NCBI GenBank assembly: GCA_936920195.1
Contig: CAKZHE010000099.1
Span: 1 to 64,000, forward strand
Origin: an uncultured cyanobacterium
GTDB taxonomy: Bacteria > Cyanobacteriota > Cyanobacteriia > Cyanobacteriales > FACHB-T130
Reading direction: 5' to 3'
DNA length: 64,000 bases
Shown here: one piece after another, positions 25,751-58,377 of the stretch
Numbering within the stretch: position 1 is the first letter of the stretch
Layout of the letters: every line of letters begins with the position of its first letter
Notes under the pieces: model-generated
What the model saw: only the letters and a program-made list of their open reading frames with translations
What the model was told of the DNA's origin: nothing
The model's database searches: none
Position numbers and translations under genes: made by a program

Positions 25751-25766
25751 TGCTGCTAGGGTTCCC
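25751..25766 (-). promoter_or_regulatory. GGGAACCCTAGCAGCA box before the sheath gene
   Basis: The end of GGGAACCCTA is 23 bases before the ATG at 25734. It is the same distance and orientation as at the portal, terminase, protease and effector genes. Confidence 0.6.
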
Positions 25767-30142: not shown

Positions 30143-30160
30143 CTGCTGCTAGGGTTCCCT
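30143..30160 (-). promoter_or_regulatory. GGGAACCCTAGCAGCAG box before the protease gene
   Basis: The box ends 26 bases before the ATG at 30124. It is the same 16-mer as before sheath and portal genes. Confidence 0.6.
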
Positions 30161-30688: not shown

Positions 30689-31453
30689 TCATTGCCCCGT
30701 GTTAAGTCTGTTCTCGACCATTGTTCGTAGATGCGGTGGGAGCCTATCCATCTGGTCTGTTAATGCTTCGCGGGGGTTATTTCCAGGGGTGTAGGCAAAT
30801 CCCGGTTCTGCAATGGGTTTGATTTTGCCGTTAACGCGGACTGCTGGAACTTGTTGGGTTGCACCAGTGCGTTTGTCTAAAATGGTGGCGGTTTCGGCGA
30901 TCGCATCTACTGACAAATTCTCCCTTTCCATATCCCGGTTGGATAATGTCACCACCCGGCAACCACAGCCGAATCCATTTGGTGGGTAAATTTGCTGCCA
31001 GATGGGGTCATTTGCCAAAAATACTTTCCCGTCCAAGGCTTTGTGGTGCGGACGGGGGTGGCGGGTATCGCCGTGAATGTATTGCCAGTATGGACGGAGT
31101 TTGAGTACGTCTGGATCTGTTTGTTGCTGGTATCTTCCGGCGTTGTAGGCGGTGGCGAGGTTTTGCCGGAAGATTAATTCGGTTCTCCAAGGGGTTGCCC
31201 CTGTCCAGCCTGCATCATTAACTCTGGCTTTGAATTGTTTTTTCCAACTTTCAAAACTGATGCCTTCAACCAAGGCTCTTTCAATTAGATCGGCAATATC
31301 ATTCAGTAACACTGCTGAGGATACGCCAGCAACTGTGAATGCCCAGTCTTGCGCTGCGCCAATGATGTCGTCCCAAACTTCGGTCGGAAGCGGGTATTTT
31401 TGGCGGAAGTAGGCGATCGCTTGGTTGAAGGGCAGGCTGAATGGATCTGGCAT
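30689..31453 (-). CDS. Mu F-like head morphogenesis protein
   Basis: A 254-residue minor head protein of the gpF/SPP1 gp7 family. It has QNLATAYNAGRYQQ, WQYIHGDTRHPRPHHKALDG and PPNGFGCGCRV, all diagnostic. In Mu it follows the portal gene directly; here 13 kb of cargo separates them. Confidence 0.92.
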   Translation of the reverse strand: MPDPFSLPFNQAIAYFRQKYPLPTEVWDDIIGAAQDWAFTVAGVSSAVLLNDIADLIERALVEGISFESWKKQFKARVNDAGWTGATPWRTELIFRQNLATAYNAGRYQQQTDPDVLKLRPYWQYIHGDTRHPRPHHKALDGKVFLANDPIWQQIYPPNGFGCGCRVVTLSNRDMERENLSVDAIAETATILDKRTGATQQVPAVRVNGKIKPIAEPGFAYTPGNNPREALTDQMDRLPPHLRTMVENRLNTGQ

Positions 31454-31466
31454 TTTGTTTCCAATG

Positions 31467-31486
31467 CGCTGCTCCTAGGGTTCCCC
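31467..31486 (-). promoter_or_regulatory. GGGGAACCCTAGGAGCAG box before the F-like gene
   Basis: The end of GGGAACCCTA is 23 bases before the ATG at 31453. The box overlaps the stop codon of the ribbon-helix-helix gene. Confidence 0.58.
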
Positions 31487-31730: not shown

Positions 31731-31955
31731 TGGCACATATAAAAATGTGCCACTTATTTTAAAAATTTTCCAAAAATATTTCAAAATCGCCTCAAAACCT
31801 ATTGACATCGACGTATACCTCGATTTATATTATAAGTATGGAAAACAAAAGAGCCACCCGGACAAGCAGCGGGAAAGCCAAAACCCTAGAGGACTCACCG
31901 AGAGCCGAGGCTGGGAACCCTGAAGCCACCGAGTGTAGGGGCGAGAAAAAAATAT
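31731..31955. repeat. Direct repeat A: promoter plus structured leader
   Basis: About 220 bp, repeated with high identity at 32755-32981. It begins with a hairpin TGGCACAT/ATGTGCCA, then an AT-rich stretch, promoter with operator, and a GC-rich folded leader. Divergence between the copies is concentrated in one stem. Confidence 0.88.
31802..31832 (+). promoter_or_regulatory. Promoter with embedded operator (P1)
   Basis: TTGACA at 31802-31807 is a perfect -35. TTATAT/TATATT at 31825-31832 is a plausible -10. The operator TCGACGTATACCTCGA fills the spacer (31808-31823), so a bound repressor would block RNA polymerase. Confidence 0.7.
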
Positions 31956-31970
31956 CAGTCCTGTAAATGA
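31840..31970 (+). ncRNA. Putative structured RNA leader, copy 1
   Basis: CCCTA (31884) pairs with TAGGG (31936). Inside are a CTC-ACC-GAG hairpin and a GGCT/AGCC stem with loop GGGAACCCTGA. Upstream, CCCG pairs with CGGG. It ends in ATCAGTCCTGTAAATGA just before the gene at 31981. A possible 43-codon frame from 31838 is not conserved in copy 2, whereas the stems are. No known RNA family recognised. Confidence 0.5.
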
Positions 31971-31980
31971 GGAAAAAACC

Positions 31981-32280
31981 ATGAGACGACGCATAAACCT
32001 AGATCGCTTCACCCCTGTAGCGGCAGACCTTACAGACCTTCTTGCGACGTTTGGAGAAGCTCAAATTGGCGACGACAAAGATTATTACGATCGCCGTTCT
32101 GGTGATGAGCAACTTGCCAAACTTCAGGCCGAACTTGCGGAGGCAATGGAACAAGAACGCCACCTCAGAGAAGCCCAACTTCAAAGAATTGAAGCCCAGC
32201 AACAAAGAATTCAAGAAGCACGGCAATTGGCAAAAGAGTTGCAAGAAATCGAAGAACGCATAAACAACTTAATCCCGTAA
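31981..32280 (+). CDS. Small coiled-coil protein of unknown function
   Basis: A 99-residue protein. From about residue 42 it is an uninterrupted Gln/Glu/Leu-rich heptad region (QRIEAQQQRIQEARQLAKEL). GGAAAAAACC precedes the ATG. It is first in the plus-strand cargo transcript from P1. Confidence 0.65.
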   Translation: MRRRINLDRFTPVAADLTDLLATFGEAQIGDDKDYYDRRSGDEQLAKLQAELAEAMEQERHLREAQLQRIEAQQQRIQEARQLAKELQEIEERINNLIP

Positions 32281-32289
32281 AAGCGGATC

Positions 32290-32343
32290 GGCAGGGTGCA
32301 AACCCCTGCCAAACATTAGCCGGACACACTACACAATCCCGGC
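32290..32343 (+). other. Repeated leader hairpin, copy 1
   Basis: GGCAGGG and CCCTGCC flank a small loop, followed by AAACATTAGCCGG and a downstream CCCGGC. The same 50-base block is at 33204-33255. Both lie immediately before small cargo genes. Confidence 0.55.
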
Positions 32344-32357
32344 GCAATGGAGACAAC

Positions 32358-32684
32358 ATGAACGCATTAAAAGCAACGATGATCCTCGGATACTGTCAAG
32401 CTCAACAACAGGCAGGATACTGGGAATGGAATGGTAGCGAAGGTTGGGAGTTTGATGAAAAGGTTCTCTCCGAAGATGGGAAGGGGGGCTACGTTTTCGC
32501 TGGAATGATTGTTGGCATGATGATCAAACTCCTTGACGAGGGGTTCCTACTCCGAGGCACTTACTGCTCAGACGATGGAAATTACGAAGACAAAGGCGAG
32601 TTTGAATTTGAGATCGAGAGCCTCAGCCACCTGAACGTCCTATTGGATGACGCGACAAGCGGCAAATTCTTGATGCAGCAATAG
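32358..32684 (+). CDS. Hypothetical protein
   Basis: A 108-residue acidic protein with aromatic-rich YWEWNGSEGWEFDEKV near its N-terminus. No family recognised and no membrane segment. Downstream of a conserved hairpin leader, in the same transcript as the coiled-coil gene. Confidence 0.6.
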   Translation: MNALKATMILGYCQAQQQAGYWEWNGSEGWEFDEKVLSEDGKGGYVFAGMIVGMMIKLLDEGFLLRGTYCSDDGNYEDKGEFEFEIESLSHLNVLLDDATSGKFLMQQ

Positions 32685-32754
32685 GCTATCTAAAAACGCG
32701 ATAGCGCTAGCGCGCACGCAGGGCTTCGCCGCACCTCGGAATCGGACATAGAAA

Positions 32755-32981
32755 GTGGCACACCTAGTAATGTGCCACTTATTTTGGGAATTTTCCAAAA
32801 ATATTTTAAAATTGCCTCAAAACCTATTGACATCGACGTATACCTCGACTTATATTATAAGTATGGAAAACGAAAGAGCCACCCGGACAAGCAGCGGGAA
32901 AGCCAAAACCCTAAAAGACTTACTGAGTCTGAGGCTGGGAACCCTGAAGCCACCGAGTGTAGGGGCGAGAAAAAATATCAG
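32755..32981. repeat. Direct repeat B: promoter plus structured leader
   Basis: Second copy of 31731-31955, about 1 kb downstream. It starts with the hairpin GTGGCACA/TGTGCCAC. It duplicates the regulatory unit, not a gene. Confidence 0.88.
32827..32857 (+). promoter_or_regulatory. Promoter with embedded operator (P2)
   Basis: TTGACA at 32827-32832, the operator TCGACGTATACCTCGA at 32833-32848, then TTATATTATAAG as -10 region. Identical in design to P1. Confidence 0.7.
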
Positions 32982-34949: not shown

Positions 34950-35003
34950 GTTTGTAGTTGGGCTTTAGCCCCAATCCATCAGGGCTAAAGCCCAACTACA
35001 AAC
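34950..35003. repeat. Dispersed palindromic repeat, copy 4
   Basis: TTTGTAGTTGGGCTTTAGCC with its complement, followed directly by a GGGAACCCTA box. It may separate the small-gene unit from the effector unit. Confidence 0.88.
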
Positions 35004-35009
35004 TGCGAC

Positions 35010-35026
35010 GGGAACCCTAACGGCAG
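35010..35026 (+). promoter_or_regulatory. GGGAACCCTAACGGCAG box before the first effector gene
   Basis: The end of GGGAACCCTA is 23 bases before the ATG at 35042. Plus-strand orientation, matching its gene. Confidence 0.6.
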
Positions 35027-35041
35027 CGATCTTTCCCAGAT

Positions 35042-36055
35042 ATGACACTGCTAAAACATCGGATTTCCGCGCACCTTTTCCAAAATTTCCGGGAATTTTT
35101 AGTCCGGAACTTTGATTTTGATACCGCCAATCAAGCCGTACCGACCTATCTGCTCGACCAAATCGAAATCGCTGCGGCTGACTTTGCCGAAGGCGAAGGG
35201 ATTCGGCTGATTGACCGGGAGAGCCTGCTAGCCATCAAAGATGCCCTGGAAATGTCCTACACCGATGGCATCACGGCGATTACGGAAGCTTATCTACAGC
35301 CCGATGACAGCATCACTGGCAAATTTATAGATAAAGTTAATCCCAAAATCACCAAACGGCTTGAATTTAAACTAACTGATGAAGAATTATCCTATACCCT
35401 AGTCAACGACCAAGAACTAGCCAATTTTAGCGAGGAAGATTGGCTAGATTTTGCCGCCGCAACTAAACCCAAAAATTGCAAAAAAGGCATTCCTTGTAAG
35501 GGAAGTTGCATTGCTGTAGGTAAGCAATGTAAAGATTCATCTTCAGCGCAGAAAACATCAAACAAAAAAGCTGTCACGACAGCGAAAAAAGCTACTACTG
35601 GGAAGAAGGCTGCTGTTCCGGATACCTCTGGCAACGCCAATCAAGAATCGGCATCTCAAAGTCAAGCCGAATCTCAAAGTCAAGATGATCGGTCAACAAA
35701 AATAAAACAACACTTAAGACCACAATCAATTGTTCACGGCAAAATACATTCTGATATGCTCACACCAGGTTCAGTCCAGATTTCTCCAGAAAGAGAGCAG
35801 TTTATCCGGGATCATATCAATAAATGGGGGGCGAATTTAATCCCTGTAGTTGTTCGCACCGATCCAAAGGACGAATTTAAATATGAAGTAATTTCCGGGC
35901 ATGATATTGCCTATGTCGCCCAAAAAATGGGCAAAGACTTTGTGCAAGCTTCGCATTACAACCTCAATGATGAAGAAGCTGCGGCTATGCGTGATGAAAT
36001 AGCCCTATTACAAAACGGCGGAGTACCAAAAACTAGCAAAAAGAAAACAAAATAA
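35042..36055 (+). CDS. Modular cargo protein with ParB-like C-terminal domain
   Basis: A 337-residue protein. Residues 10-41 (HLFQNFREFLVRNFDFDTAN, then VPTYLLDQI) match a segment of the phage protease/scaffold. Residues 60-140 are the core shared by all five modular proteins (SYTDGITAI, ITGKFIDKV). A C-x5-C-x3-C-x6-C motif lies at 146-163. After a low-complexity Lys/Thr/Ser linker, residues 220-330 resemble a ParB/Srx-type domain (YEVISGHDIAYVAQKMG). Its first 165 residues are nearly identical to those of the next gene. It could be an injected effector; the activity is unproven. Confidence 0.72.
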   Translation: MTLLKHRISAHLFQNFREFLVRNFDFDTANQAVPTYLLDQIEIAAADFAEGEGIRLIDRESLLAIKDALEMSYTDGITAITEAYLQPDDSITGKFIDKVNPKITKRLEFKLTDEELSYTLVNDQELANFSEEDWLDFAAATKPKNCKKGIPCKGSCIAVGKQCKDSSSAQKTSNKKAVTTAKKATTGKKAAVPDTSGNANQESASQSQAESQSQDDRSTKIKQHLRPQSIVHGKIHSDMLTPGSVQISPEREQFIRDHINKWGANLIPVVVRTDPKDEFKYEVISGHDIAYVAQKMGKDFVQASHYNLNDEEAAAMRDEIALLQNGGVPKTSKKKTK

Positions 36056-36069
36056 GACTTTTTTAGCTT

Positions 36070-37470
36070 ATGAAATTGCTAAAACATCGGATTTCCGCGC
36101 ACCTTTTCCAAAATTTCCGGGAATTTTTAGTCCGCAACTTTGATTTTGATACCGCCAATCAAGCCGTACCGACCTATCTGCTCGACCAAATCGAAATCGC
36201 TGCGGCTAACTTTGCTGAAGGCGAAGCGATTCGGCTGATTGACCGGGAGAGCCTGCTAGCCATCAAAGATGCCCTGGAAATGTCCTACACCGATGGCATC
36301 ACGGCGATTACGGAAGCTTATCTACAGCCCGATGACAGCATCACTGGCAAATTTATAGATAAAGTTAATCCCAAAATCACCAAACGGCTTGAATTTAAAC
36401 TAACTGATGAAGAATTATCCTATATCCTAGTTAACGACCGAGAACTAGCCAATTTTAGCGAGGAAGATTGGCTAGACTTTGCCGCCGCAACTAAACCCAA
36501 AAACTGCAAAAAAGGCATTCCCTGTGGGGGAAGTTGCATTGCCGCAAGTAAGCAATGTAGGATTTCATCTTTGGCGCAGCAAACATCAAATAAAAAAGCT
36601 ATTGCCACAGCCCAAGAAAATACTAAATCGCTCAATAAAACGCCAGACACTGTTTTGACGATAAAAGCTGGTATTGAGAAAGTTGACGCAAAATACAAAG
36701 TTAAATTAAGTGCATTAGAAGCCCAGAGAAATGAAAAAATAAAACAAATAGATCAAGCATTCCATCTTCCATTAAAAGACTTTGAGAAGGTAATGGACGA
36801 TTTTAGAAAAGCAGATAAAAAATATTCTGATCTTATTGAGAAAGCCGAACTTGAAAAAGGAAAACTAATCGTCAAGGAATTAAAGAAAACCTATGAACAG
36901 CCAAGGATGCAGCAGCATCATGGTATGTCAGAAGCAGAAGATATGTGGTCTGTAAAAATCGGGAATACAAGTTTTCATGGAACCGAAGAGTTTTCAGCAG
37001 ATCATACACTTGTAAAAACGGTTTCAGCGCTTTTGCAGCAAAAAGATCTACCAGCACACTTCATTGACAGCACGAAAAATGTTTTTTTCAGCAAACAATT
37101 AAACAAAGATGACCATTACTGGCAAGTGAAGTATAATAATCCAACGCATATCAGTGGTGCCACTGGCGGCGACAGAAATATTGTATTTTACAATACCCAA
37201 AACGGTAGCAGAATTGATGAATACATCCACGAAACGGGACACAATTTTGCCACAAAGAAGTATGGTGGGGTAGATCCGCCAAAATTGAGCGATTATGGAA
37301 AGGCAATAAAATCGCCTCACCCTTCAGAATATGGGCGTAAAAGCAAGGCAGAGGATTTCGCGGAAACTGCTAGAATGTATTTTTTAGATCCTAAGCGACT
37401 AAAAGAAGATGCTCCAGAGCGATATCACGTTTTTGAAAAAATGATGAAGGATGAAAACTATGCAGGATGA
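36070..37470 (+). CDS. Modular cargo protein with zincin-like metallopeptidase domain
   Basis: A 466-residue paralogue of the preceding gene. The N-terminal scaffold-like segment, shared core and four-cysteine motif (CKKGIPCGGSCIAASKQC) are nearly the same. The rest differs completely: a coiled coil at about 200-290, then a domain with HETGH at 387-391 and a downstream EDFAETA stretch near 428 that could supply the third zinc ligand. The near-identical 5' halves of neighbouring genes point to duplication with C-terminal replacement. Confidence 0.75.
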   Translation: MKLLKHRISAHLFQNFREFLVRNFDFDTANQAVPTYLLDQIEIAAANFAEGEAIRLIDRESLLAIKDALEMSYTDGITAITEAYLQPDDSITGKFIDKVNPKITKRLEFKLTDEELSYILVNDRELANFSEEDWLDFAAATKPKNCKKGIPCGGSCIAASKQCRISSLAQQTSNKKAIATAQENTKSLNKTPDTVLTIKAGIEKVDAKYKVKLSALEAQRNEKIKQIDQAFHLPLKDFEKVMDDFRKADKKYSDLIEKAELEKGKLIVKELKKTYEQPRMQQHHGMSEAEDMWSVKIGNTSFHGTEEFSADHTLVKTVSALLQQKDLPAHFIDSTKNVFFSKQLNKDDHYWQVKYNNPTHISGATGGDRNIVFYNTQNGSRIDEYIHETGHNFATKKYGGVDPPKLSDYGKAIKSPHPSEYGRKSKAEDFAETARMYFLDPKRLKEDAPERYHVFEKMMKDENYAG

Positions 37471-37884: not shown

Positions 37885-39069
37885 TTAGTTTGAACCGTAC
37901 TTCTTAAGTAATTCGTCTGCACTTTTAGTGTCTAATTGATAAACTAGAGTCTTGCCTGGAACTGGTTTAAAGCCCATCTTTTCATAAAATGGTGCTGAAT
38001 CTGGCAGTGCCTCTAGCACCACCTTGCCTTTATATCCCTGCTGTTTGGAAATTTGAACAGCCTGGATTAAACCTTCCGTTCCAGCCCCTCGAACTGATTT
38101 ATCAGATTTGGTATTGTTCCAAGGCGCTGTAGCCAAATATTCAACGTAAACATGGTCTTTTTTGACTTTATACTCCATTGCTCCCTGAATATTACCTTTT
38201 TCATCATACAGCCCCACTCGTTTAGTTCCTGGTGCTACACCCCTTGTGGTAAATTCTTCAGTTATTGACATAGATGCGTGCAGTCGCTTGTCATCTATGC
38301 CTAAGTATTGATTATTATTTTTAACGGCTTTTTTTTCTTCTTTTGCCGCTAGCTTTCGCATGGTAGCAGCTTCAGCAGCATACTCCTTTGCCATTTCATC
38401 TCTGGTAAAAGTTTTACCTTTAGCTTTGTAATTTTTGTTTGGAGGGTCATTCAATATTTTTTTCGAGTTTTGCTCGGCAATATCTGCTTGTTTGTTTATC
38501 TGGCGAATCCTGATGACATCACTCATCTGTTTGCGTTCGGCTTCCCACTGGGTTAAATCCTTTTGCAACTGTGGTTCATTATCGTTGATTTTGAATTTGG
38601 TTTTTATTTCTGGCTTTACTATCTTAGCTGGTTGAACGGGTGTCTGAGGAGTTGCAGTTTTAGACTTGGCTTTAGTTACCTTTTGGACTGACTGCTTCTC
38701 TGCATCATCCAATCCATCCTTGCACTGCCGATTTTTAGCGATGCAAGTCCCTTTGCAAGGAGTTCCTTTGGTACAGTTTTTAGTCTTACTAGCAGCAAAG
38801 TCAATGTCAATCTCAGCGAGTTCAACATCTTCACCATTGACCAAGCCATAGCTAACATCGTTCTGGGTGATGGTAAATTGATAGCGCTTAGTTAGCTGCT
38901 CGCTAACTTTATCTTCAAATATCCCAGTGATATTGTCCCCATCTGTTGATGCTTCGGGAATAGCTGTAATGCCATCGGTGTAGCGGACTTCTAGCAGTTT
39001 CCGCAGTTCCAATAAATCTTCTGGTGAATTGATTTTTGTCCCTTCGTTAAAGTTCGGGGATTGCTCTAG
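37885..39069 (-). CDS. Modular cargo protein with GNAT acetyltransferase domain (probable frameshift continuation)
   Basis: The first in-frame ATG is at 39012, but homology to the gene at 39416 (GTKINSPEDLLELRK) extends upstream of it, up to an A10 tract where the frame joins the gene at 39066. The protein has the shared core, the CTKGTPCKGTCIAKNRQC motif, a linker, a helical region, and a C-terminal GNAT fold (residues 250-375 from the ATG) with VEYLATAPWN, a RGAGTEGLI acetyl-CoA loop and FYEKMGFK. A fusion by -1 shift would have about 510 residues. Confidence 0.72.
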   Translation of the reverse strand, partial: LEQSPNFNEGTKINSPEDLLELRKLLEVRYTDGITAIPEASTDGDNITGIFEDKVSEQLTKRYQFTITQNDVSYGLVNGEDVELAEIDIDFAASKTKNCTKGTPCKGTCIAKNRQCKDGLDDAEKQSVQKVTKAKSKTATPQTPVQPAKIVKPEIKTKFKINDNEPQLQKDLTQWEAERKQMSDVIRIRQINKQADIAEQNSKKILNDPPNKNYKAKGKTFTRDEMAKEYAAEAATMRKLAAKEEKKAVKNNNQYLGIDDKRLHASMSITEEFTTRGVAPGTKRVGLYDEKGNIQGAMEYKVKKDHVYVEYLATAPWNNTKSDKSVRGAGTEGLIQAVQISKQQGYKGKVVLEALPDSAPFYEKMGFKPVPGKTLVYQLDTKSADELLKKYGSN

Positions 39070-39080
39070 TTTTTTTTTTC
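39066..39080 (-). other. Candidate programmed -1 frameshift site
   Basis: Ten consecutive A residues on the coding strand end in the canonical heptamer A AAA AAC, in phase with the upstream gene and followed at once by TAG. Slippage by -1 enters the open frame of the GNAT-tailed protein. Transcriptional slippage on the A tract would also work. Confidence 0.6.
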
Positions 39081-39416
39081 TGCACTAGCGCGAAGCACAT
39101 CCCCTGTCATCCCTGGAATCCCCAGGGAATATTTTTTGACCAATTCCTCCCCTTCAATGGTGAAAAGACCCCATTTTTTCACTCTGGCGATCCGTTTCAG
39201 AGCGCAATCTAGATCAATGGGGACGATCCGCTCAGGATTTATTTTGTGACCAAAACAACCTGCCCCACTGGATAATTCGGACTTCAATTTTAGGAAAGTA
39301 CGAAGATCTCCATCAATCAGTTTTAAAGGCGCTGCCTTCAAACTTTCATCGCTTTCCAACTTGATGAGCAGAGCATCATCTATACCAGTTTCGGGAACTA
39401 TTTGGTACACCAGCAT
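39066..39416 (-). CDS. Small phage protein, probable N-terminal module of the GNAT effector
   Basis: A 116-residue protein of unknown family, overlapping the upstream gene by TAATG. Content such as LKLIDGDLRTFLKLKSEL and PERIVPIDLDCALKRI suggests a compact alpha/beta domain. It ends in the slippery A tract. It may be made alone and as the head of a 510-residue fusion. Confidence 0.65.
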   Translation of the reverse strand: MLVYQIVPETGIDDALLIKLESDESLKAAPLKLIDGDLRTFLKLKSELSSGAGCFGHKINPERIVPIDLDCALKRIARVKKWGLFTIEGEELVKKYSLGIPGMTGDVLRASAEKKN

Positions 39417-41314
39417 TATTCTTTTCCTCCTCTAATTACACCCAGAACGTAGGCAAAATGTTGCGGGTCTTTGGCTGCTAACTCTGCCATATCTTTAGCG
39501 CTATGAAACCTTTCAAAGCCAGTAGTTACAACCTCTGTGGCAATATTTTCGTCATCATCTCTTTGATATTTTTTGCCGACGTATGGATCTATGAATTTAT
39601 CAGGATAGGCAATTTCATTGTCGTCAAACCCTCCGTTTTTATCCAAAACCTTTAATTTTTTAGGTTTTCCTGTGGCACGGGATTCGATAAATGCTTGCGA
39701 ATGTTCGCCAATGTCGGAATCCGCAAATTCAATATGGTGGGACAACTCGTGCATTAATGATTCCTTGTCCGCATATCTGCCAAGAAATATCTTTCTAGAA
39801 TATTCACTGGTGCAAGATCTGTCATCGTCCCGGTTTTCAATAGCTGCTACATTTTCAAAGCCCTGCCCATTGGTTAGCTTAATATATTCTTTCAGGTCTT
39901 GCTCTATGTTGGGATGTTTAGCTTTTACATTTTTATCGATTTCAAGTTTGGCTATCATTTGGTCGGCTTCATCATCAGAAATAATTGAATTCCGCTTCAG
40001 CTTATCCATGAAATCTTTATGGGGTTTCTCCAATGCCTCCGTTTCTTTGTCTAATTTGGCTTTTCTTTTTTGAAATGCAGGGCTATTTTCCATTTCTGCC
40101 CTAGCTTTATCCTCAAAGTTATCGGCGATTTGTTGCATTTTCTGTTGTTGAGCCGATATTCTATTCATTATTGGCTGCACTTGCTGAGAATATTCTTGCT
40201 GGGTCATTTTCCCTGCCACAAAATCATCATGCAAAGGCTTCTGCACTGCCCTCAATTTGGCAACCTCTTGCTTGGCTGCTTGATAGGCAGGTTCAGTCCC
40301 TGCAAGTTTATGTTTGTGAAGTAAAGCTGCACTATCCAACTCCGAATTATAGTTAATCCGGGCATCCTCCAATTTCTCCCATTTTTTAAAGTGTCCTTTG
40401 GTTTGTTGCAGATATTCAGCCGCAACAACTTTACCATTGTCTATCTGCTCTTGATAATTTTTGGCCTTTTGAGAACGAGCGGTGTTAGTAGCTGGTTGAA
40501 CAGGTGGTTGAGTAGCTGGTTGAACGGGTGTCTGAGCAGTTTTAGACTTGGCTTTAGTTATCTTTTGGACTGACTGCTTTTCTGCATCACCCAATCCATC
40601 CTTACACTGCCGATTTTTAGCGATGCAAGTCCCTTTGCAAGGAGTTCCTTTGGTGCAGTTTTTAGCCTTCCCAGCGGCAAAGTCAATGTCAATCTCAGCG
40701 AGTTCAACATCTTCGCCATTGACCAAGCCATAGCTAACATCGTTCTGGGTGATGGTGAATTGATAGCGCTTGGTCAGCTGCTCGCTAACTTTATCTTCAA
40801 ATATCCCCGTGATATTGTCCCCATCTGTTGATGCTTCGGGAATAGCTGTAATGCCATCGGTGTAGCGGACTTCTAGCAGTTTCCGCAGTTCCAATAAATC
40901 TTCTGGCGAATTGATTTTTGTCCCTATCGCCTGCGGCGACGCTGCGCTATCGGCAAACTCTTCCGCAGTCTCAGTTTCCTGGATTATTTCAAAACGTCCT
41001 GCTGCTTCAGCAACCACCAAAGCTTTTCCCATCAAAGTTGTAAAATCTTGGGGAGATAAAGCAGGATAAAGATTAAAGAGTTGTTCGCGAAATTCCTCAA
41101 AACTGCCTGCTTCTTCCAGTAGGTCTTCCACAGGTTTAAGCCAACTAGCCATTAACTGGGGCGTTTGGTTTATTGCCTTTTCAATGTAAGAATTTATGGA
41201 CTCTCCTTCTGCAAATTGGAATGAGCTAGGCAATTTGGCTAACTCAGCACCAGGGGCAATCAAGAGTCCCCCTATTTCATCTTCTAGGTCGGCTAATTCT
41301 TCTAAAAGTGACAT
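39416..41314 (-). CDS. Modular cargo protein: portal-tail-like N-terminus, zincin C-terminus
   Basis: 632 residues. Residues 30-115 (SYIEKAINQTPQLMASWLKP, LLEEAGSFEEFREQLFNLYP, ALVVAEAAGRFEI) look like the C-terminal region of DUF935 portals, as I recall that family. Residues 140-220 are the shared core, followed by the four-cysteine motif near residue 230. A Lys/Gln-rich coiled coil covers 270-450. The C-terminus has HELSHH near 521, a zincin zinc site, and a later ENIATEVVTTG stretch. Two similar domain types in opposite-strand genes suggest exchange. Confidence 0.75.
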   Translation of the reverse strand: MSLLEELADLEDEIGGLLIAPGAELAKLPSSFQFAEGESINSYIEKAINQTPQLMASWLKPVEDLLEEAGSFEEFREQLFNLYPALSPQDFTTLMGKALVVAEAAGRFEIIQETETAEEFADSAASPQAIGTKINSPEDLLELRKLLEVRYTDGITAIPEASTDGDNITGIFEDKVSEQLTKRYQFTITQNDVSYGLVNGEDVELAEIDIDFAAGKAKNCTKGTPCKGTCIAKNRQCKDGLGDAEKQSVQKITKAKSKTAQTPVQPATQPPVQPATNTARSQKAKNYQEQIDNGKVVAAEYLQQTKGHFKKWEKLEDARINYNSELDSAALLHKHKLAGTEPAYQAAKQEVAKLRAVQKPLHDDFVAGKMTQQEYSQQVQPIMNRISAQQQKMQQIADNFEDKARAEMENSPAFQKRKAKLDKETEALEKPHKDFMDKLKRNSIISDDEADQMIAKLEIDKNVKAKHPNIEQDLKEYIKLTNGQGFENVAAIENRDDDRSCTSEYSRKIFLGRYADKESLMHELSHHIEFADSDIGEHSQAFIESRATGKPKKLKVLDKNGGFDDNEIAYPDKFIDPYVGKKYQRDDDENIATEVVTTGFERFHSAKDMAELAAKDPQHFAYVLGVIRGGKE

Positions 41315-42894: not shown

Positions 42895-44337
42895 TTAACT
42901 TAAACTCAATATCCGAGTGCAAATACCATTCATTTCTGCGAAGGATACCTGGGGGGCAACCCATTCCAAAAAGGCGATCGCATCAATTTCCTCCTCCATC
43001 TCCGGCGGCGTTTCTTCTGGGGGTGGTTGTTCAACCTCTGGGGCTTGATCTGCGGGTTGTTCTGGAGCAGCAGCGCCACTATTTTTCAGGAATTCTTCAT
43101 CACTGGTTGCGCCATCCCCTTCGGCCTGCTCTGCGACTTCGTAATGGTCGCCATAAATTTCGGCGATCGCTTCTTTTTTGAGCTTCCACCCCATGTCAAA
43201 TAGCGTCTTATCCCGATTGGCTCTGGCGTTTAAATCTTCTACCTCGTCAAACTTGCGCCATATCTGCGGCGGCTTGGCTTCGGGCAGATTCAATTCGGCA
43301 ATCCAGCGGCACAAAGTTCGATTTAGCGTTCCTGATAGTAAATCAGCATCCGCTTTGACTAAATCTTGGCGAACATCGTTGTGGGTTTGGGAAGCGGCAT
43401 AACTCCCGCGATCGCCAACTTGAGTGGTCAAAGTCTGCCCTAAAACTGCTTTGCTGATTTCGGCATCCATATAGGTAGCCAAGGATTCGTAGCAGCTGAT
43501 GGAACCGCTGCGACTGGCTTCCAAAAGCTCAATAATCATCCCTTCCGGGATAATTACCCCGGCATCATGGGCGATCGCATCCAAGGCATCTAGCAGCGTC
43601 CTTTTCTGCTCCTGGGATGCTCCATTGGGATATTTCCCCACAGCGGTAGGGCTGGCAAATTTGTCAACAAATGCCAGCCAATACTTGATATCCTGGCGCT
43701 TGAAAAATACTGGGAACCAGAGCGATCGCCCCAAACCAATCCCAAAGGGATTACCATCTTTTGAGCCGAAAGAATGACAGATGAACTTGCGGGGATACTT
43801 CGCCAGCGATTCCCCGTTGTAGATATTTTCAGGGGTCAGCAACCGCAACTCATAGCCATCTTCGCCCAGTCCGAAGGTAAAGCGCTGCTGGTTTTTCGGG
43901 CGAATTTCAGTGGCGACAAATTCCTTGCCGTCTTGCCCCCACATAATTTCAGCAATAGCATTGCCTTTCAGCAGGGCATCCAATAAGTTTAAGCAGGCAA
44001 AATCAAAATCCCAAGCAACAATTTGCTGCGATGCACAGCCCAAGTTTTTAAGTTGGTCTGTCACCATGTCTGCTGCTTTTTGGTCGATAGCGTCGTCTCC
44101 CCCGGCTTTAACCTCCCATTCCTTGCCAATTACTGCTAATTGGCGAGTATTCAAAACAGAGGAGCAATGACCATCTTTCAGCAAGTTGTCGTAAAGTGCA
44201 TATTGCCCCTGTCCTCGGTTTCGCAACACTTCATCGGGTTGCATAGCCAAGGCTCCATCACCCCAAACGAACTGAGTGATGTCCCGCTTGATGCTGGCTA
44301 TTTCTTCAAGAAAAGCTTTAGGTGCAGGCAAGGGCAA
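42895..44337 (-). CDS. Portal protein (Mu gp29-like, DUF935)
   Basis: 480 residues with TTG start at 44337. It has the DUF935 pattern DGHCSSVLNTRQLAVIGKEW, a WDFDFACLNLLDALLKGNAI stretch, GKYPNGASQEQKRTLLDALD and GDRGSYAASQTHNDVRQDLV. The portal forms the DNA entry ring. Its C-terminus is shorter than I expect: the helical end of the family seems to be missing and to occur instead at the start of the gene at 39416. A GGGAACCCTA box lies 22 bases upstream. Confidence 0.9.
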   Translation of the reverse strand: MPLPAPKAFLEEIASIKRDITQFVWGDGALAMQPDEVLRNRGQGQYALYDNLLKDGHCSSVLNTRQLAVIGKEWEVKAGGDDAIDQKAADMVTDQLKNLGCASQQIVAWDFDFACLNLLDALLKGNAIAEIMWGQDGKEFVATEIRPKNQQRFTFGLGEDGYELRLLTPENIYNGESLAKYPRKFICHSFGSKDGNPFGIGLGRSLWFPVFFKRQDIKYWLAFVDKFASPTAVGKYPNGASQEQKRTLLDALDAIAHDAGVIIPEGMIIELLEASRSGSISCYESLATYMDAEISKAVLGQTLTTQVGDRGSYAASQTHNDVRQDLVKADADLLSGTLNRTLCRWIAELNLPEAKPPQIWRKFDEVEDLNARANRDKTLFDMGWKLKKEAIAEIYGDHYEVAEQAEGDGATSDEEFLKNSGAAAPEQPADQAPEVEQPPPEETPPEMEEEIDAIAFLEWVAPQVSFAEMNGICTRILSLS

Positions 44338-44350
44338 TTGGTGAAAGCTA

Positions 44351-44367
44351 CTGCTGCTAGGGTTCCC
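44351..44367 (-). promoter_or_regulatory. GGGAACCCTAGCAGCAG box before the portal gene
   Basis: Same 16-mer as before the sheath and protease genes; it ends 22 bases before the TTG start. Confidence 0.6.
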
Positions 44368-44372: not shown

Positions 44373-44425
44373 GTTCGTAGTTGGGCTTTAGCCCTGTCCG
44401 GAAGGGCTAAAGCCCAACTACAAAC
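44373..44425. repeat. Dispersed palindromic repeat, copy 5
   Basis: GTTCGTAGTTGGGCTTTAGC with its complementary arm. It sits between two divergent GGGAACCCTA boxes (44351-44367 minus, 44442-44451 plus). Confidence 0.88.
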
Positions 44426-44441: not shown

Positions 44442-44451
44442 GGGAACCCTA
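44442..44451 (+). promoter_or_regulatory. GGGAACCCTA box before the sigma-factor gene
   Basis: Ends 25 bases before the ATG at 44476, on the plus strand. Confidence 0.58.
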
Positions 44452-44475: not shown

Positions 44476-45111
44476 ATGCCAGCTAGCCGAAATAAATTAA
44501 TTACAGAAAATCTTGGTCTTGTTTACGATGCCGCCCACAAATGTCGCAAGCGCACCCATGCCGAACTGGACGATCTCATTCAGGCTGGGTGCATAGGATT
44601 GATTAAAGCTAGTGATCGCTTCGATGCCACCAAAGGCTATAAATTCAGTTCTTTCGCTATGCCCTATATTCGCGGCACAATCATGCAGTTTCTGCGAGAT
44701 AAAGTCGGGTTGGTGCGGCTCCCCAGGGGCTTGCAAGAATTAGTTTCTGAACATCGCAAAATCCGCGACGATCTTGCCAAAGCACTTGGTCGGTTTCCCA
44801 CCGTTGCCGAAGTTGCCGCAGCAATCAAAGTTTCACCCGCCAAAGTTCGAGAAGCTGAAACCGCCTATTTAAATTATCGCTATCCGAAAAGTCTGGATAT
44901 CCCCGCCGACTCAGGGGAAGAAGAAACTTTGCTAGACTTACTCCCCGCCGAAAATCAAGGACAATTACCAGATAATAATATTGAATCTTTAATTGAAAAA
45001 TTAGCTGGAAATAATTTTGAACCCAGTCGGGAAAAAATAGTTAATCTCGCTCGCCGCGTAACCAATTTTCAAAGAAATTACGCTCATCATCCGACAACCA
45101 TTGTTTGCTAA
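44476..45111 (+). CDS. Truncated sigma-70 family factor encoded in the prophage
   Basis: 211 residues. Region 2 is well kept (NLGLVYDAAHKC, ELDDLIQAGCIGLIKASDRF, TKGYKFSSFAMPYIRGTI), and region 3 follows (LPRGLQELVSEHRKI, FPTVAEVAAAIKV). It is closest in style to cyanobacterial group 3 sigma factors. Region 4, which binds the -35 element, is missing; the last 25 residues are encoded antisense to the gene at 45041-45250. It could direct RNA polymerase to extended -10-type promoters or act as a decoy. It lies alone on the plus strand between terminase and portal. Confidence 0.82.
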   Translation: MPASRNKLITENLGLVYDAAHKCRKRTHAELDDLIQAGCIGLIKASDRFDATKGYKFSSFAMPYIRGTIMQFLRDKVGLVRLPRGLQELVSEHRKIRDDLAKALGRFPTVAEVAAAIKVSPAKVREAETAYLNYRYPKSLDIPADSGEEETLLDLLPAENQGQLPDNNIESLIEKLAGNNFEPSREKIVNLARRVTNFQRNYAHHPTTIVC

Positions 45112-45250
45112 TCTTCCAGATTCTCCTAACTTCAGTGCCATTCAAAGAACCCAGATACTGACAATATTCTTTCAGCAACAAATCACTATCTTCCAAAGCG
45201 CATAGAATCAGCGCTGCCAAAGTAATCGCGCTCCAATCGATCGTGGTCAT
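45041..45250 (-). CDS. Hypothetical small protein after the large terminase
   Basis: 69 residues; starts inside the terminase gene's 3' end and converges with the sigma gene, overlapping it by 70 bases. The sequence (LLLKEYCQYLGSLNGTEVRR) looks like a normal helical protein. One of the two overlapping C-termini is probably secondary. No family known. Confidence 0.5.
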   Translation of the reverse strand: MTTIDWSAITLAALILCALEDSDLLLKEYCQYLGSLNGTEVRRIWKISKQWLSDDERNFFENWLRGERD

Positions 45251-46760
45251 AATCCGTTGAATAATGATTAAGTTGGTAAGCTAACCTAGTTGCCCCGACC
45301 GACTCAAATTCAATTGGGATCGGCTCTTGCTCCGAGGCAAACCAAAATAAACAACAGGCGATCGCGCCATCTCCGTGCCGTTGCTCTCCATCGCTCCCCT
45401 TCTTCCGCTTGCCCTCTGGCACTTTCGGCACGCCGCTAATGCTAACAACTTGCCTGTGGTCTTGCAACAGATCCGCTGATGCCGGGAGTTCAATTTTCCG
45501 ATCTTCCAGTCCCGATTTGTACTTGGGCATCCATTCTGAATACCACTGGTTTGTCAGTTGGATTTGATGCACTCTGCCAAATCCATATTTTTGGGCAGCA
45601 ACTTCTGCCAAATATTGTCCATTACCTCTCGCATCATGCGCCCCGATCTGGAATCTTGGCAAGCGGTCAACTACGTAAAACAAAATTTGTTTCTGCTGTT
45701 CAAAAGGGATATTACGGAGTTCCAGCGCAAAAGCTGAACGCCGCACCAAATTTGGCAACTCTTGACCTACCAACAAGTAACTCAAATCCCCCAATCTGCC
45801 AAAATCCATCCCATAGAAGCTGTTAAGGTTTGGATTCAGTTTGTAGATCAACGGCTCAACTTCTGCCTGCAACCAATCTGCCACCTGGTTGTGCCGCACC
45901 TGTTCCGACAGCAAGGCAAAGTCATCGGGCAATTTCAGTCGCAGAACTGGAATATCCGACCTCATACAATTTTCTACCAAAATCCGGGGGAAATAAATGC
46001 CGCCGCTGCTACTGGGGATGCAGTTCAATTCCTCATCGGCATCATCACCAAATTCTTCCAGGACCTGATTTTTCCACTCGGTTTCCCCTTCGGAAGTCCA
46101 GGATTTACCATTAACCAGACAGATGCGCCTGTAGAGTCCCTGGGTCAGCGCATCCTCAAACGTGGTGAAATGTCGGGAGTAGGGCAGCTTGCCAGCTAAA
46201 ACGTCTTTTTCCAAATCGTAATAGGCGTTGTCAATGCCGTTGTAGGTAGTGACGATGTTAATTCGGCTCCCCCAAATTCGCAGGGCTTTAGCAGCCTTCA
46301 AAAGCCCATTCAGGTCATCATGGAATGCCGCCTCGTCGATGACTACCCGCCCTTGGCGCGATCGCAGATTTCGGGGACTGCTGGAAAGAGCCTCAATCTT
46401 GAATCCGCTGTTGAAATGCAGTCGGAAAACCAGGATCGATTTTTCCTCATCCCCATCTCGGAATATTTCCTCATCCTCTTCAATTGCCGATGCTGCCAGT
46501 TGATAAGCCTTTGCCCAGTCCGCTGCATCTTGGATAAAGCCCCTGGTCATATCTTTCTCATAGCCGATGTAGAAGCTGTTTTCGCCTTTCGCTTCGGCAG
46601 CAGCTAGAGCGCAGTCCCCAGCTTCACACCAGGAAGCGCCAATGCGTCGGCTTTTTGTCCACATTTTTACGCCAGATTTGTCCCGCAGCCAATTCTGTTG
46701 ATAGGGAAGCAAAAGCTTGGGGACATCTTCAGGCGGCAGTTTCAGGGCGACTAAACTCAT
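45186..46760 (-). CDS. Large terminase subunit (Mu gp28-like)
   Basis: 524 residues. The ATPase part has a Walker A-like KSRRIGASW and Walker B RVVIDEAAFHDD. The RNase H-like nuclease begins at FYGMDFGRLGDLSYLLVG. This is the DNA packaging motor. It overlaps the small terminase gene by 4 bases. Confidence 0.9.
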   Translation of the reverse strand: MSLVALKLPPEDVPKLLLPYQQNWLRDKSGVKMWTKSRRIGASWCEAGDCALAAAEAKGENSFYIGYEKDMTRGFIQDAADWAKAYQLAASAIEEDEEIFRDGDEEKSILVFRLHFNSGFKIEALSSSPRNLRSRQGRVVIDEAAFHDDLNGLLKAAKALRIWGSRINIVTTYNGIDNAYYDLEKDVLAGKLPYSRHFTTFEDALTQGLYRRICLVNGKSWTSEGETEWKNQVLEEFGDDADEELNCIPSSSGGIYFPRILVENCMRSDIPVLRLKLPDDFALLSEQVRHNQVADWLQAEVEPLIYKLNPNLNSFYGMDFGRLGDLSYLLVGQELPNLVRRSAFALELRNIPFEQQKQILFYVVDRLPRFQIGAHDARGNGQYLAEVAAQKYGFGRVHQIQLTNQWYSEWMPKYKSGLEDRKIELPASADLLQDHRQVVSISGVPKVPEGKRKKGSDGEQRHGDGAIACCLFWFASEQEPIPIEFESVGATRLAYQLNHYSTDYDHDRLERDYFGSADSMRFGR

Positions 46761-47275
46761 TCGACAATCCCCAAAATCTGGGCGCGGATTGCTGCCGCTG
46801 TCTCCGGCGATAGCCCCTCCCGCTGGACTGTTTTTTCGACTTCTTCAGCGGCAACCTTGGCTTTTTGACGCACCTCGGACTGGTATTTTTTGACTGTAAC
46901 TGAACTGCGATTGAGATCGGCGATCGCTCTCACCAAAGCCGGGAAAGAAACATCTTCCACCTGATCCATTTCCACCAGCACCCGAAAAAGCTTCTCTTGG
47001 GCAAGGCGCGTCAGCGCATCTCCCATCAGATTTTCATCATCGTGGGTAACTTCCCCAATTGCCTTAATCTGTTCGGCGACGGTTTTGAGATTGGATAATT
47101 GCTGTTCAAATTTCTGCCCGTAGCGGTGCAACGTGCTGCGAGAGATTTCAAAACCTTGTTCGCGCAGCCAGCTAGCCAATTCGGTATAGCTAGAAAAGGC
47201 ATTTTGCAACAGCTTTTTATCTAGTTCCCGGCGAACATCTTCGGGTAGCAAGGAGATAGCGGATCTAGCTGGCAT
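46757..47275 (-). CDS. Small terminase (Mu gp27-like, DUF3486)
   Basis: 172 residues. An N-terminal helix-turn-helix region (LLPEDVRRELDKKLL, TELASWLREQGFEISRSTLH) fits DUF3486, whose members recognise the packaging site. The rest is helical. It heads the head-gene operon behind a GGGAACCCTA box. Confidence 0.87.
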   Translation of the reverse strand: MPARSAISLLPEDVRRELDKKLLQNAFSSYTELASWLREQGFEISRSTLHRYGQKFEQQLSNLKTVAEQIKAIGEVTHDDENLMGDALTRLAQEKLFRVLVEMDQVEDVSFPALVRAIADLNRSSVTVKKYQSEVRQKAKVAAEEVEKTVQREGLSPETAAAIRAQILGIVE

Positions 47276-47290: not shown

Positions 47291-47321
47291 CTACCGTTAG
47301 GGTTCCCGTTCAGGGAACCCT
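47291..47321. promoter_or_regulatory. Divergent pair of GGGAACCCT boxes
   Basis: AGGGTTCCC and GGGAACCCT face each other across a 5-base spacer. The minus-strand box ends 24 bases before the terminase ATG; the plus-strand one is 28 bases before the ATG at 47347. They form an inverted repeat between divergent genes. Confidence 0.6.
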
Positions 47322-47346
47322 GTAAATACCGTCAATCCTTGGTTCT

Positions 47347-47511
47347 ATGCAACTTAGACCTGTATTGTTTAATCTTGCCGTGCGCTCTTTAGCCGCCGCT
47401 GTCACTGGCAATCGTCCCAAAATCTCCGTTGAGCAAATTGCCTTAGTCCTTGGTGAAGAAGCTCTCCGGCAATATTTCGCTGAACATCCCGAATTGCAAC
47501 AACCGCAATAA
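47347..47511 (+). CDS. Small hypothetical protein
   Basis: 54 residues (starts MQLRPVLFNLAVRSLAAAV), divergent from the small terminase and preceded by its own GGGAACCCT box. Helical, ends in Gln/Pro. A perfect palindrome follows the stop, so this may be a one-gene transcript. No family known. Confidence 0.55.
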   Translation: MQLRPVLFNLAVRSLAAAVTGNRPKISVEQIALVLGEEALRQYFAEHPELQQPQ

Positions 47512-47606: not shown

Positions 47607-47765
47607 TTGACATACTCCCCGCCCTAAAAGTGCGGGGATTCTGGGTTCAAACAACAGTTGCAGGCGCAGCCCGTCTTACACTATCTCGCCCAACAGACAA
47701 TGCCCTGCCTGCTTCTACCATTCTATCAGAAAGCCGTCCTAGAATGACGGGGCTTTATACCCATT
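47607..47765 (-). ncRNA. Omega-RNA-like remnant of an IS200/IS605 element
   Basis: Read on the minus strand: GCCCCGTCATTCTAGGACGG near the 5' side, CTTTCTGATAGAATG and GGCAGGGCATTGTCTG in the middle, and a 3' hairpin AATCCCCGCAC/GCGGGGAG ending in TATGTCAA. I recognise this layout from the 3' ends of cyanobacterial tnpB elements, where it forms the guide RNA scaffold. No tnpB gene remains next to it, and no transposase A gene is present. Confidence 0.6.
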
Positions 47766-47882
47766 TTTCTGGTAAAAAGAAACAGTCAGATTGCAGTCAA
47801 TACAAGTGAACATTATCGTTCCTTTGAACCTTGAGCATCCGCAGCGAGGGCAGCACAAACCTTGAAGAGTGGAATAATTCAT
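47739..47882 (-). CDS. Small zinc-ribbon protein
   Basis: 47 residues with CPRCGC and, 12 residues later, CIDC, which together form a zinc ribbon. The 3' end overlaps the omega-RNA-like segment. It may be a phage regulator comparable to Com of Mu, or the residue of the zinc-binding C-terminus of a decayed TnpB; the order CPRC...CIDCN allows both. Too short for a firm call. Confidence 0.45.
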   Translation of the reverse strand: MNYSTLQGLCCPRCGCSRFKGTIMFTCIDCNLTVSFYQKNGYKAPSF

Positions 47883-47893: not shown

Positions 47894-49939
47894 TTAAAGA
47901 CTTTTCCATAACCCCACAGCCCCCAATTCCCGAAAAGCATCGGCAAATTTTTTAGTTCTCGCCCCCCAGTAAAACACCACCATAATTGAGTCCCGCAAGA
48001 AACAAATTGCGTTGACACTACCCTTAGAACTGCTATCTAAATTGAGGATATCGTTGAGCGTCTCGGTCATCAAAGCACCACTGGGAATCACCGCGATCGC
48101 CTCAGCAATTTGCCCCTTCAGACCCACAGGATCAATCATATTCTCAATCAACTTCTCCATGAACTCGTAATCGACTAAATCTCCTTGAGGGGGCAGATAC
48201 ACTTGCTTGGCAAAGGTGGTTGCAGTAGCTAAATGCTCGGTTTCGCAGTTACTTCCAAAAAAATCAGCCCCAAACATTTCCTCAACTGCTTTTTTGATGG
48301 CATCTTCTAGTGTTACCTTAACTTCAGTTGCTGCTGGTAATTCCGCCTTCAACTGATTCCAAGCCGCCTGATAATTTTCATCCCATTGCCAAGCTGGATC
48401 GAACTCGCTGAAATGCTGCTTGATTTTATTGATAGTGCTTTCTTCCGCATTAAAAGCATCTTCCAAGCCATTAGCATAGTGACCGCGAAGCCACATTTTT
48501 AATAGCCCATAGGCATTGTTCCGCTCTTTTTCATTATCTTTTTGGGGAACGGCAGGAGGGCTGCTGACTTCTGGTTGCTGTTCGGCTAAAACCTGGAATT
48601 CATGTTCGCGATAGGTATCTTCTTCCTTGCCATCATCAAATAGAATTGTCCAAAATTTTGTTTTTGGGTCATACGCGGTCAGAGTCCCCTTATGACCGCC
48701 GTATTTAATTCTGTCTCCTACTTTGCACTTGGGAGATGAATCTGTGCTTTCGGGTTTGGGCGCAACAAAATAATCTTGCGCTCCGGCAATTGTCCGTGAT
48801 AGTGGTGTTTCGCCTTCTTTGATACTTGGAATATCGACATGGTAGCCATCGACAGACAGGATGCGATATTTACTGCCATCTCCTTTGAAGTGCCAAGCCT
48901 GCCAATCCACTTTGTGCGTTCCTTTAACCCAATTAGGGTGGAAAGAACACTGAATTTCATGTCCTCCAACCTCAATCGGGAAATTTTGAGGTATTCCCCA
49001 AGGATCGATATTTGTTTGGCCTAGCAGTCCCTTTTCCACCTTCATAACTGCCCCAGTTTCTGATGCTATTTTCACCATTTCATCCTGGGGGTTGCTCAAA
49101 ACAGTCACATACTTATCTTCCCAAATACCTCCAGTTACTCTGGCGATCGCGCCTATTCCCATCGGCCTTAATGGAACCGCCTTTTTGTTCTTCCGCTCAG
49201 TTGATTGAGTGTAAGTCGAACCATTGCGATTAACCGTTACCGTCCCTGACGATTTTTTAATCTGCGCTGCCGCTGCTTCTAATTCCTCCACCGTGCAGCC
49301 GCAGCGTTCTGCCATCTTCGCACCATCCGAAGATAGCAACTCCTTCTTTAATTTGCGGACAAAAGATTCATCCACCGCACACATTTTGGCGATCGCTACA
49401 TTGCTTCGCTTACTCCATTCCTCATCCCGCAACGTTCGCAATACCGCCCGTCGCTTATCCGCATCCGTTCGAGGCAACCCATTCTTCCGGTTTGCCTTCA
49501 ACGATGCTTCCACCGCATCTCGCTGGGTTCCCTGAGAGATTAGGCAGGGAATTTTTTCAGGAATATTATTGCCAGCATCATCCTTCCAAAGCTCAATAAT
49601 CCGCTCCAGAAAATCTTGGTCAAACAACCCCTCAAACTTCCGAGCCTCATCCAACCCCGCCAACTCCGCCAGCGGTCGAGGCAAATCGCCCTCCTCAACC
49701 TCCAACGCAATCAGCAGGCTCGCCGTCCGATGGAAGCCATCATGCAGCCAGTAATCGCTCCCATCAAAAAACAACTCCACCGGGGGGAAAGCCTCACCCT
49801 TAATCCAGGCCGCAATATAATCCCGCATCTGCTCAACATTGTAAGCGGCACGGCTTTGCGTCCCCCCATCTCTCCGAATCAAACGCGGGTCCAAATAAGT
49901 GACTTCCGCTGTCATTGGTTTTTCTAACGTTCCAACCAT
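47894..49939 (-). CDS. Large ParB-like nuclease-fold protein of the early region
   Basis: 681 residues. Residues 10-90 form a ParB/Srx-like domain (TYLDPRLIRRDGGTQSRAAY, YWLHDGFHRTASLL). Next is a helix-turn-helix region (NVAIAKMCAVDESFVRKLKK near 180) and two SH3/KOW-like segments (about 265 and 405). The C-terminal 180 residues are helical. Large ParB-like proteins next to GemA occur in Mu-like phages; the role in replication or regulation is unknown. Confidence 0.75.
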   Translation of the reverse strand: MVGTLEKPMTAEVTYLDPRLIRRDGGTQSRAAYNVEQMRDYIAAWIKGEAFPPVELFFDGSDYWLHDGFHRTASLLIALEVEEGDLPRPLAELAGLDEARKFEGLFDQDFLERIIELWKDDAGNNIPEKIPCLISQGTQRDAVEASLKANRKNGLPRTDADKRRAVLRTLRDEEWSKRSNVAIAKMCAVDESFVRKLKKELLSSDGAKMAERCGCTVEELEAAAAQIKKSSGTVTVNRNGSTYTQSTERKNKKAVPLRPMGIGAIARVTGGIWEDKYVTVLSNPQDEMVKIASETGAVMKVEKGLLGQTNIDPWGIPQNFPIEVGGHEIQCSFHPNWVKGTHKVDWQAWHFKGDGSKYRILSVDGYHVDIPSIKEGETPLSRTIAGAQDYFVAPKPESTDSSPKCKVGDRIKYGGHKGTLTAYDPKTKFWTILFDDGKEEDTYREHEFQVLAEQQPEVSSPPAVPQKDNEKERNNAYGLLKMWLRGHYANGLEDAFNAEESTINKIKQHFSEFDPAWQWDENYQAAWNQLKAELPAATEVKVTLEDAIKKAVEEMFGADFFGSNCETEHLATATTFAKQVYLPPQGDLVDYEFMEKLIENMIDPVGLKGQIAEAIAVIPSGALMTETLNDILNLDSSSKGSVNAICFLRDSIMVVFYWGARTKKFADAFRELGAVGLWKSL

Positions 49940-56903: not shown

Positions 56904-57293
56904 ATGGTTTGTGTCATAGTGGAAAGCAGAAGCCTAGCTAGAAAAGACATGATTGCACCATCAGTCCCCCCATCAGTGGCACGTAGAAAAAACAGAACAG
57001 CGGTCAAACGAGCCTGGTTTGACCGCCAAGGGCTTATAAAAATTGGCGAAATTATTCGGACAGCCAGGGAATCAGCCAATCTATCTCTAGACGACGTGGC
57101 TGAGATGACGGGCTATGCTAAAGCCACAATCAGTTATTTGGAAAATGGTGCAAATAAAATCAATCCGCCGCTGTTGGAAGCTTTGCGCCGGATTCTCAAA
57201 CCAATAAACCCCGACACTGGCAATGTGTACGGGGGATGGGAGCTATTGAGTATGTCTTTCGTGATTCGCTTAGAAGAGATAGATGAAGTCTAA
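56904..57293 (+). CDS. Xre-family repressor (c-like)
   Basis: 129 residues, possibly starting at the ATG at 56949. The helix-turn-helix is IGEIIRTARESANLSLDDVA followed by EMTGYAKATISYLENGAN. Divergent from the transposase operon, as the lysogeny repressor of Mu is. A TATAGT -10-like hexamer lies just before the start. Confidence 0.8.
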   Translation: MVCVIVESRSLARKDMIAPSVPPSVARRKNRTAVKRAWFDRQGLIKIGEIIRTARESANLSLDDVAEMTGYAKATISYLENGANKINPPLLEALRRILKPINPDTGNVYGGWELLSMSFVIRLEEIDEV

Positions 57294-57889: not shown

Positions 57890-58062
57890 GGCGGTTCATT
57901 TCCACAATTAGTCCAACTGTACCATTCTTTTATTACTTCGCAACCTTTATCCTTCTTATTTTGTTTTGTACATTCACCCAAAGAAACGACTTGGATAGTC
58001 GGTGGTTGATGAACAACCATGTCAGGAAGAATCATGGTAGATGCTTTTGGTAGATGTCTGCG

Positions 58063-58136
58063 TTCCCAGTTCCCAGTTCCCAGTTCCCAGTTCCCAGTTC
58101 CCAGTTCCCAGTTCCCAGTTCCCAGTTCCCAGTTCC
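58063..58136. repeat. Tandem CCCAGTT repeat
   Basis: About ten copies of the heptamer CCCAGTT head to tail. An open frame through it codes for repeated GNWELGT and is an artefact of the repeat. Confidence 0.9.
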
Positions 58137-58377
58137 CCCAGTATATGACTGCTTTTTTGCTATTGACTACTCTGATCCAAACCCTGTTCTCCCAGTAATT
58201 AAACATTAGGCTTGAATCTAAATACGGCACTTAACGACATCTTCGGTTTGTACGAAGATGCAAACAAAAACTCTAACCGTTCCAACTTGCAAGTCCTGTT
58301 AGGGTATTGTCCAACCCAGCTTTTGAATGTCTAACCGTTACCTAAAATAGCTGGTTGACTGGAGCGATCGTGAGCTA

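Follow-up and report, generated by a model that had tools for sequence, protein, structure and literature searches.

A Mu-like prophage in a cyanobacterial genome (5.7 Mb) carries, among its head genes, a sigma factor with regions 2 and 3 and no recognisable region 4, is devoid of a detectable Mor/C-type late activator, and bears eight exact copies of a short box, GGGAACCCTA, upstream of late genes on both strands. With about even confidence, we consider that this gene may encode a late sigma factor of the phage, descended from the SigF/SigB group, that would read late promoters consisting of a -10 element only and would replace Mor/C. Somewhat more tentatively, a Mu-like phage could have swapped Mor/C for a captured group 3 sigma factor without region 4 that reads GGGAACCCTA on both strands, which would be an independent invention of the strategy of T4 gp55 in an unrelated phage and from a different sigma ancestor. 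The whole case rests on one prophage.

A sigma factor gene in a Mu-like prophage

The window (the whole stretch of 64,000 nucleotides that was analysed) contains genes for a MuA-type transposase, MuB, GemA, gp27, terminase, Mu portal, MuF, protease, scaffold, major head protein, gp36, sheath and baseplate, including the gene set that marks a Mu-like transposable phage (MuA/MuB, GemA, gp27, Mu portal, terminase and gp36). The sigma factor gene lies on the plus strand between the terminase and portal genes, both of which are on the minus strand (Table 1), and thus within the head gene cluster, where the initial annotation had placed it. Terminase and portal adjoin each other without a sigma gene in the relative G014, and in the related stretch L048 the terminase ends at 1785 and the portal starts at 1725, without the gap that holds the sigma gene here.

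Table 1. Coordinates of the sigma factor gene, the boxes and neighbouring features in the window
Feature	Position	Strand	Remarks
Sigma factor gene, 211 aa	44476-45111	+	region 2 at residues 8-76, region 3 at residues 94-160, linker, no region 4
Last ~31 sigma codons	45016-45111	+	not coding-like on the plus strand (codon statistics)
Small ORF, 69 aa	45041-45250	-	coding-like codons; overlaps terminase end, antisense to sigma 3′ end
Portal gene	42895-44337	-	PF06074, E 7e-108; TTG start
Terminase gene	45186-46760	-	one operon with gp27
gp27 gene	46757-47275	-	Gp27 PF11985, E 5e-42
Box GGGAACCCTA	44442-44451	+	24 nt before sigma ATG
Box GGGAACCCTA	44358-44367	-	20 nt before portal TTG start
Box GGGAACCCTA	47298-47307	-	22 nt before gp27/terminase operon
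Box	31476-31485	-	22 nt before MuF-type minor head gene (30689-31453)
Box	30150-30159	-	25 nt before head maturation protease gene (29069-30124)
Box	25757-25766	-	22 nt before tail sheath gene (24562-25734)
Box	15884-15893	-	5 nt before called ATG of baseplate wedge gene (14679-15878); spacing exception
Box	35010-35019	+	22 nt before late-region ORF 35042-36055
One-mismatch box GGGAACCCTG, divergent	47313-47322	+	24 nt before 54-aa ORF (47347-47511)
One-mismatch box AGGAACCCTA	9996-10005	+	30 nt before DNA methyltransferase gene (10036-10872)
Perfect-stem hairpin repeat	44373-44425		between divergent boxes of portal and sigma genes
Similar hairpin	34950-35003		upstream of box at 35010
Host-type repeat	47607-47777		44 genome matches; copies and ends of copies scattered across the host genome

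The reading frame was confirmed as a group 3 sigma factor of SigF/SigB type with regions 2 and 3 and without region 4, and Pfam, NCBIfam and a region-4 HMM agree in this with the initial annotation. Pfam detected region 2, for core binding and -10 recognition (Sigma70_r2, PF04542, E 3e-16), and region 3 (Sigma70_r3, PF04539, E 3e-9), and no region 4 in the frame; the core-binding motifs are conserved. The best NCBIfam match was cyanobacterial SigF (PRK07408), with residues 4-164 aligned to positions 28-189 of 258 and a score of 152.7 of the 261 bits of the curated SigF cut-off, which was therefore missed; the nearest subfamily was SigF/SigB/SigG (TIGR02980). The best PDB match was the sigma factor chain 1l0o_C (E 3e-26), which we take to be sigma-F in complex with SpoIIAB. 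In the structure model, regions 2 and 3 reached pLDDT values of 80-93 and the tail stayed below 60 without a folded domain; a fold search with this model returned sigma factors throughout, although with a modest mean pLDDT of 69.9 and no gain over sequence.

The alignment with relatives ends at about residue 157-160. An HMM of region 4, made from full-length relatives and run against all frames of the window, gave nothing (best E 0.44), and its positive control recovered the host sigma factor at 4e-37, a host sequence that belonged to the training set. A frameshifted region 4 was sought in the three plus frames 3′ of the gene up to 45300, none of which was region-4-like, and a separate region-4 protein was not found elsewhere in the window. 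Codon statistics gave 0.27 bits per codon for residues 1-160, 0.51 for residues 161-180 and 0.014 for residues 181-211; this last value resembles antisense sequence, and the 69-aa frame on the minus strand has a gene-like score of 0.219 bits per codon within the overlap. Normal sigma coding ends at about residue 180. These scores support the initial proposal that the sigma 3′ end runs antisense into a small gene, although for the product of this gene no relatives were found.

Boxes upstream of the late genes

The exact box occurs eight times in the prophage versus 14 times in the rest of the genome, and the reversed control pattern occurs 24 times in the genome. All eight belong to the late region (9-47.3 kb) and lie in coding orientation and upstream of a start codon on the same strand, seven of them at a distance of 20-25 nt, and the early region (48-60 kb) contains none. 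A simple position count puts the chance of such a placement for eight out of eight at about 1e-15, a figure that is under-corrected because the box was picked after the sequence had been seen. Among the listed 10-mers with at least five copies in the prophage and its relatives, GGGAACCCTA alone combined eight copies with eight start-codon placements and was not a tandem or palindromic host word. The wider conserved stretch is GGGAACCCTANCRGYA, about 16 bp. A single GGGAACCCTAGCAGCAG in the genome outside the prophage falls within a long host ORF. Seven matches of the extended box in viral contigs, each a single one, were judged to be chance, and none was repeated with start-codon phasing; the repeated 10-mers upstream of start codons in relatives were just tandem repeats, HIP1-type or low-complexity words. 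The two hairpins of Table 1, which have perfect stems of 22-23 bp and are of the AGTTGGGCTTTAGCCC type, stand directly upstream of three boxes, and similar words occur in another contig of the host genome.

No -35 motif (TAGGC, GTTTAA or TTGACA) was clearly enriched at the right distance upstream of the boxes, as is expected for a member of the SigF/SigB family that lacks region 4. A-rich sequence is weakly preferred 9-14 bp before the box (p 0.0035 in a post hoc test whose background was not matched to intergenic sequence), so that an upstream contact is conceivable. The box is rich in G+C, and the ten bases that follow it, with 46% A+T, are not A+T-rich; in this it differs from the T4 late promoter, and melting at the box is not obvious. 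The boxes, offered as sigma targets in the initial annotation, stand as candidates in being phased to start codons, oriented with the strand, late-specific and free of a conserved -35, and in that one of them precedes the sigma gene itself; their recognition is predicted. We infer that they are promoters and that the phage sigma factor is their likely reader, since the GGGAA at the start of the box is close to the -10 of SigF and of SigB, the sigma gene has a box of its own and Mor/C is absent.

The boxes might instead be sites of another regulator, either operators or 'stoperators' of a phage repressor or translation elements in the 5′ leader, which we regard as unlikely. In favour, the conserved stretch of about 16 bp is longer than expected of a -10 element, GGGaaCCC is almost a dyad, and a Cro/C1-type HTH protein is encoded at 56904-57293. 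In mycobacteriophages, moreover, there are asymmetric, oriented repressor sites and start-associated repeats, and these stoperator and start-associated repeats are short, oriented and found near gene starts throughout the genome; their sequence is unrelated to the box, which is late-only. However, the early region, where a repressor should act, is without boxes, and activator sites of the Mor/C kind would be expected upstream of polymerase, which is too far from the start codon for a site that ends 20-25 nt before it. As a translation element, the box would be unlike a Shine-Dalgarno sequence.

Mor/C in the relatives and its absence here

Mor/C profiles (PF08765 and phrog_836) had no significant match anywhere in the genome, and the best E value in the window for an HMM built on the Mor proteins of relatives was 0.9, which agrees with the absence of such an activator from the prophage as first reported. 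The same PF08765 model found Mor/C in three relatives, G014, G178 and Microcystis phage Mae-JY22, with the gene directly upstream of gp27 in G014 and G178. Relatives with an intact Mor/C, which the initial annotation had viewed as counting against a sigma-based switch, thus exist, but these three have no boxes, and this points to replacement rather than refutation. In the interval where relatives have Mor/C, between gp27 and the ParB-like gene, the present prophage has the host-type repeat, and upstream of gp27 it has the divergent box pair, the 54-aa ORF and this repeat; together with the lack of boxes in the Mor-bearing relatives, the repeat argues for replacement. We suggest that the sigma system could have taken over from Mor/C in this way. 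A sigma factor cannot be deduced from the lack of Mor alone: in three further relatives (G023, G083 and G560), the fetched stretches contained neither a Mor match above the cut-off nor a sigma gene. By eye, the ends of the repeat look like IS200/IS605-type hairpins.

Descent of the sigma factor

The phage sigma factor shares 41-49% identity over ~155 residues with chromosomal group 3 sigma factors, and in the tree its long branch falls outside their clade, a placement that is unsure because of the branch length. It is not a recent copy of a host gene, and its lineage is apparently old, judging from the long branch. The open frames of the chromosomal relatives detected in the order and phylum measure at least 256 aa. 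Among several hundred genomes of the order and phylum, together with viral contigs, there was no orthologue, only relatives at 33-49% identity, and neither a second phage combining sigma and boxes nor an otherwise identical prophage was found in what was sampled. The fetched stretches of the Mu-like prophages G014, G178, G023, G083, G560 and Mae-JY22 contain no sigma gene.

Such isolation would also fit a degenerate moron, a truncated cargo gene without function that was picked up between terminase and portal, as would the opposite strand, the position in a gap that is absent from the relative L048, the run-out of the 3′ end into antisense sequence, and the repeat in the Mor gap, by which the prophage may be decaying. 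We consider this distinctly unlikely, since the frame is intact, with 180 coding-like codons free of stops and frameshifts despite the long branch, the core motifs are conserved, and an exact box of the late type stands at the standard distance upstream of the gene. The sigma factor could also be an appropriator or decoy, which would dampen host transcription by tying up core polymerase and would have no promoters itself; an intact core-binding region 2 and a missing region 4 would suit this. We strongly doubt it, as it explains neither the boxes of the late genes and of the sigma gene nor the loss of Mor/C, and no evidence emerged that titration of RNA polymerase, one of two options in the initial annotation, is its main role. 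Least probable of all is a role of the boxes as -35 elements for a host ECF sigma factor, whose classic -35 is GGAAC, on nearly leaderless late mRNAs with the phage sigma factor being incidental: GGGAAC does contain GGAAC and leaderless starts would give a fixed distance from box to ATG, but no conserved -10 follows at a matching distance, the conserved columns stop at +15, and a phage sigma factor with its own box is left unexplained.

Proposed mechanism and comparison with known systems

Under the preferred reading, that of a phage-encoded late sigma factor, the protein would bind host core RNA polymerase via region 2 and direct it to late promoters on both strands. Each of these would be a single strong -10-type element, GGGAACCCTA, with GGGAACCCTANCRGYA as its wider consensus, lying 20-25 nt ahead of the start codon of a virion gene block. 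By analogy with T4, transcription might start a few bases past the box and leave leaders of roughly 15 nt. The box of the sigma gene itself would provide positive feedback; a sigma-70 promoter before the gene that could start this loop was not found. The sigma factor would be active without region 4, perhaps with a flap-binding partner, as gp33 helps T4 gp55. No gp33-like or region-4 partner was recognisable in the window, and such searches could miss a gp33-like protein, because gp33 itself has no sequence similarity to sigma factors. The 54-aa ORF behind the divergent box at 47313-47322 has coding-like codons, no family and no match in phages, and is a candidate for a late regulator or a polymerase-binding partner. 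The 69-aa ORF at 45041 is a further candidate for a flap-binding partner.

The cyanobacterial SigF promoter has GGTAA at -12 and TAGGC at -32 (PMC2758279), and the -10 of Bacillus subtilis SigB is GGGTAT, with GGGAAA in one tested promoter of mild activity (PMC9847131). The phage sigma factor likewise has regions 2 and 3, and GGGAA in its supposed box resembles both GGTAA and GGGTAT; in contrast to the SigF group, it lacks region 4, has a shorter N-terminus and is phage-borne, and its supposed promoters are without a -35 of TAGGC or GTTTAA type. In T4, gp55 resembles sigma domain 2 only, the late promoter, used on both strands, is an element of 8 bp that lies roughly one turn before the start and has no -35, and gp33 and the clamp are needed for full late activity (PMC2988020). 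Both phage proteins are without domain 4, and late genes on both strands stand behind a single short, invariant element, which in the prophage is a putative promoter with no fixed -35. However, only domain 2 is recognisable in gp55, which also bears a sliding-clamp epitope, whereas the present sigma factor keeps region 3; the prophage element is G+C-rich, and no gp33 or link to the clamp was seen. Mor/C (PF08765, phrog_836) does the same biological job of switching on late genes, but as a DNA-binding activator for the host holoenzyme and not as a sigma factor.

If this reading holds, a sigma factor without the domain that reads the -35 can still serve as a dedicated late-gene switch outside the T4 family, with its bacterial ancestor still recognisable, and it would offer a small, testable system for studying the minimal requirements of promoter recognition. 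It would also illustrate the exchange of one late regulator for another in a phage and supply a promoter signature by which late genes of cyanobacterial prophages could be recognised.

Other features of the prophage

A 681-aa ParB-like protein is encoded at 47894-49939 on the minus strand, between GemA and the late genes, and is partly present in the relative G014. The late region contains long, near-identical direct duplications (35041-36368, 38654-40835 and 31731-32927; 300 nt at 98% and 95%, and 172 nt at 91%), which suggests recent tandem gene duplications. A 14-nt spaced tandem repeat, GTTCCCAGTTCCCA, occupies 58048-58138, and the relatives G014 and G560 have similar tandem repeats, GGAACTTGGAACT and CCCAATTCCCAATT, near their prophages.
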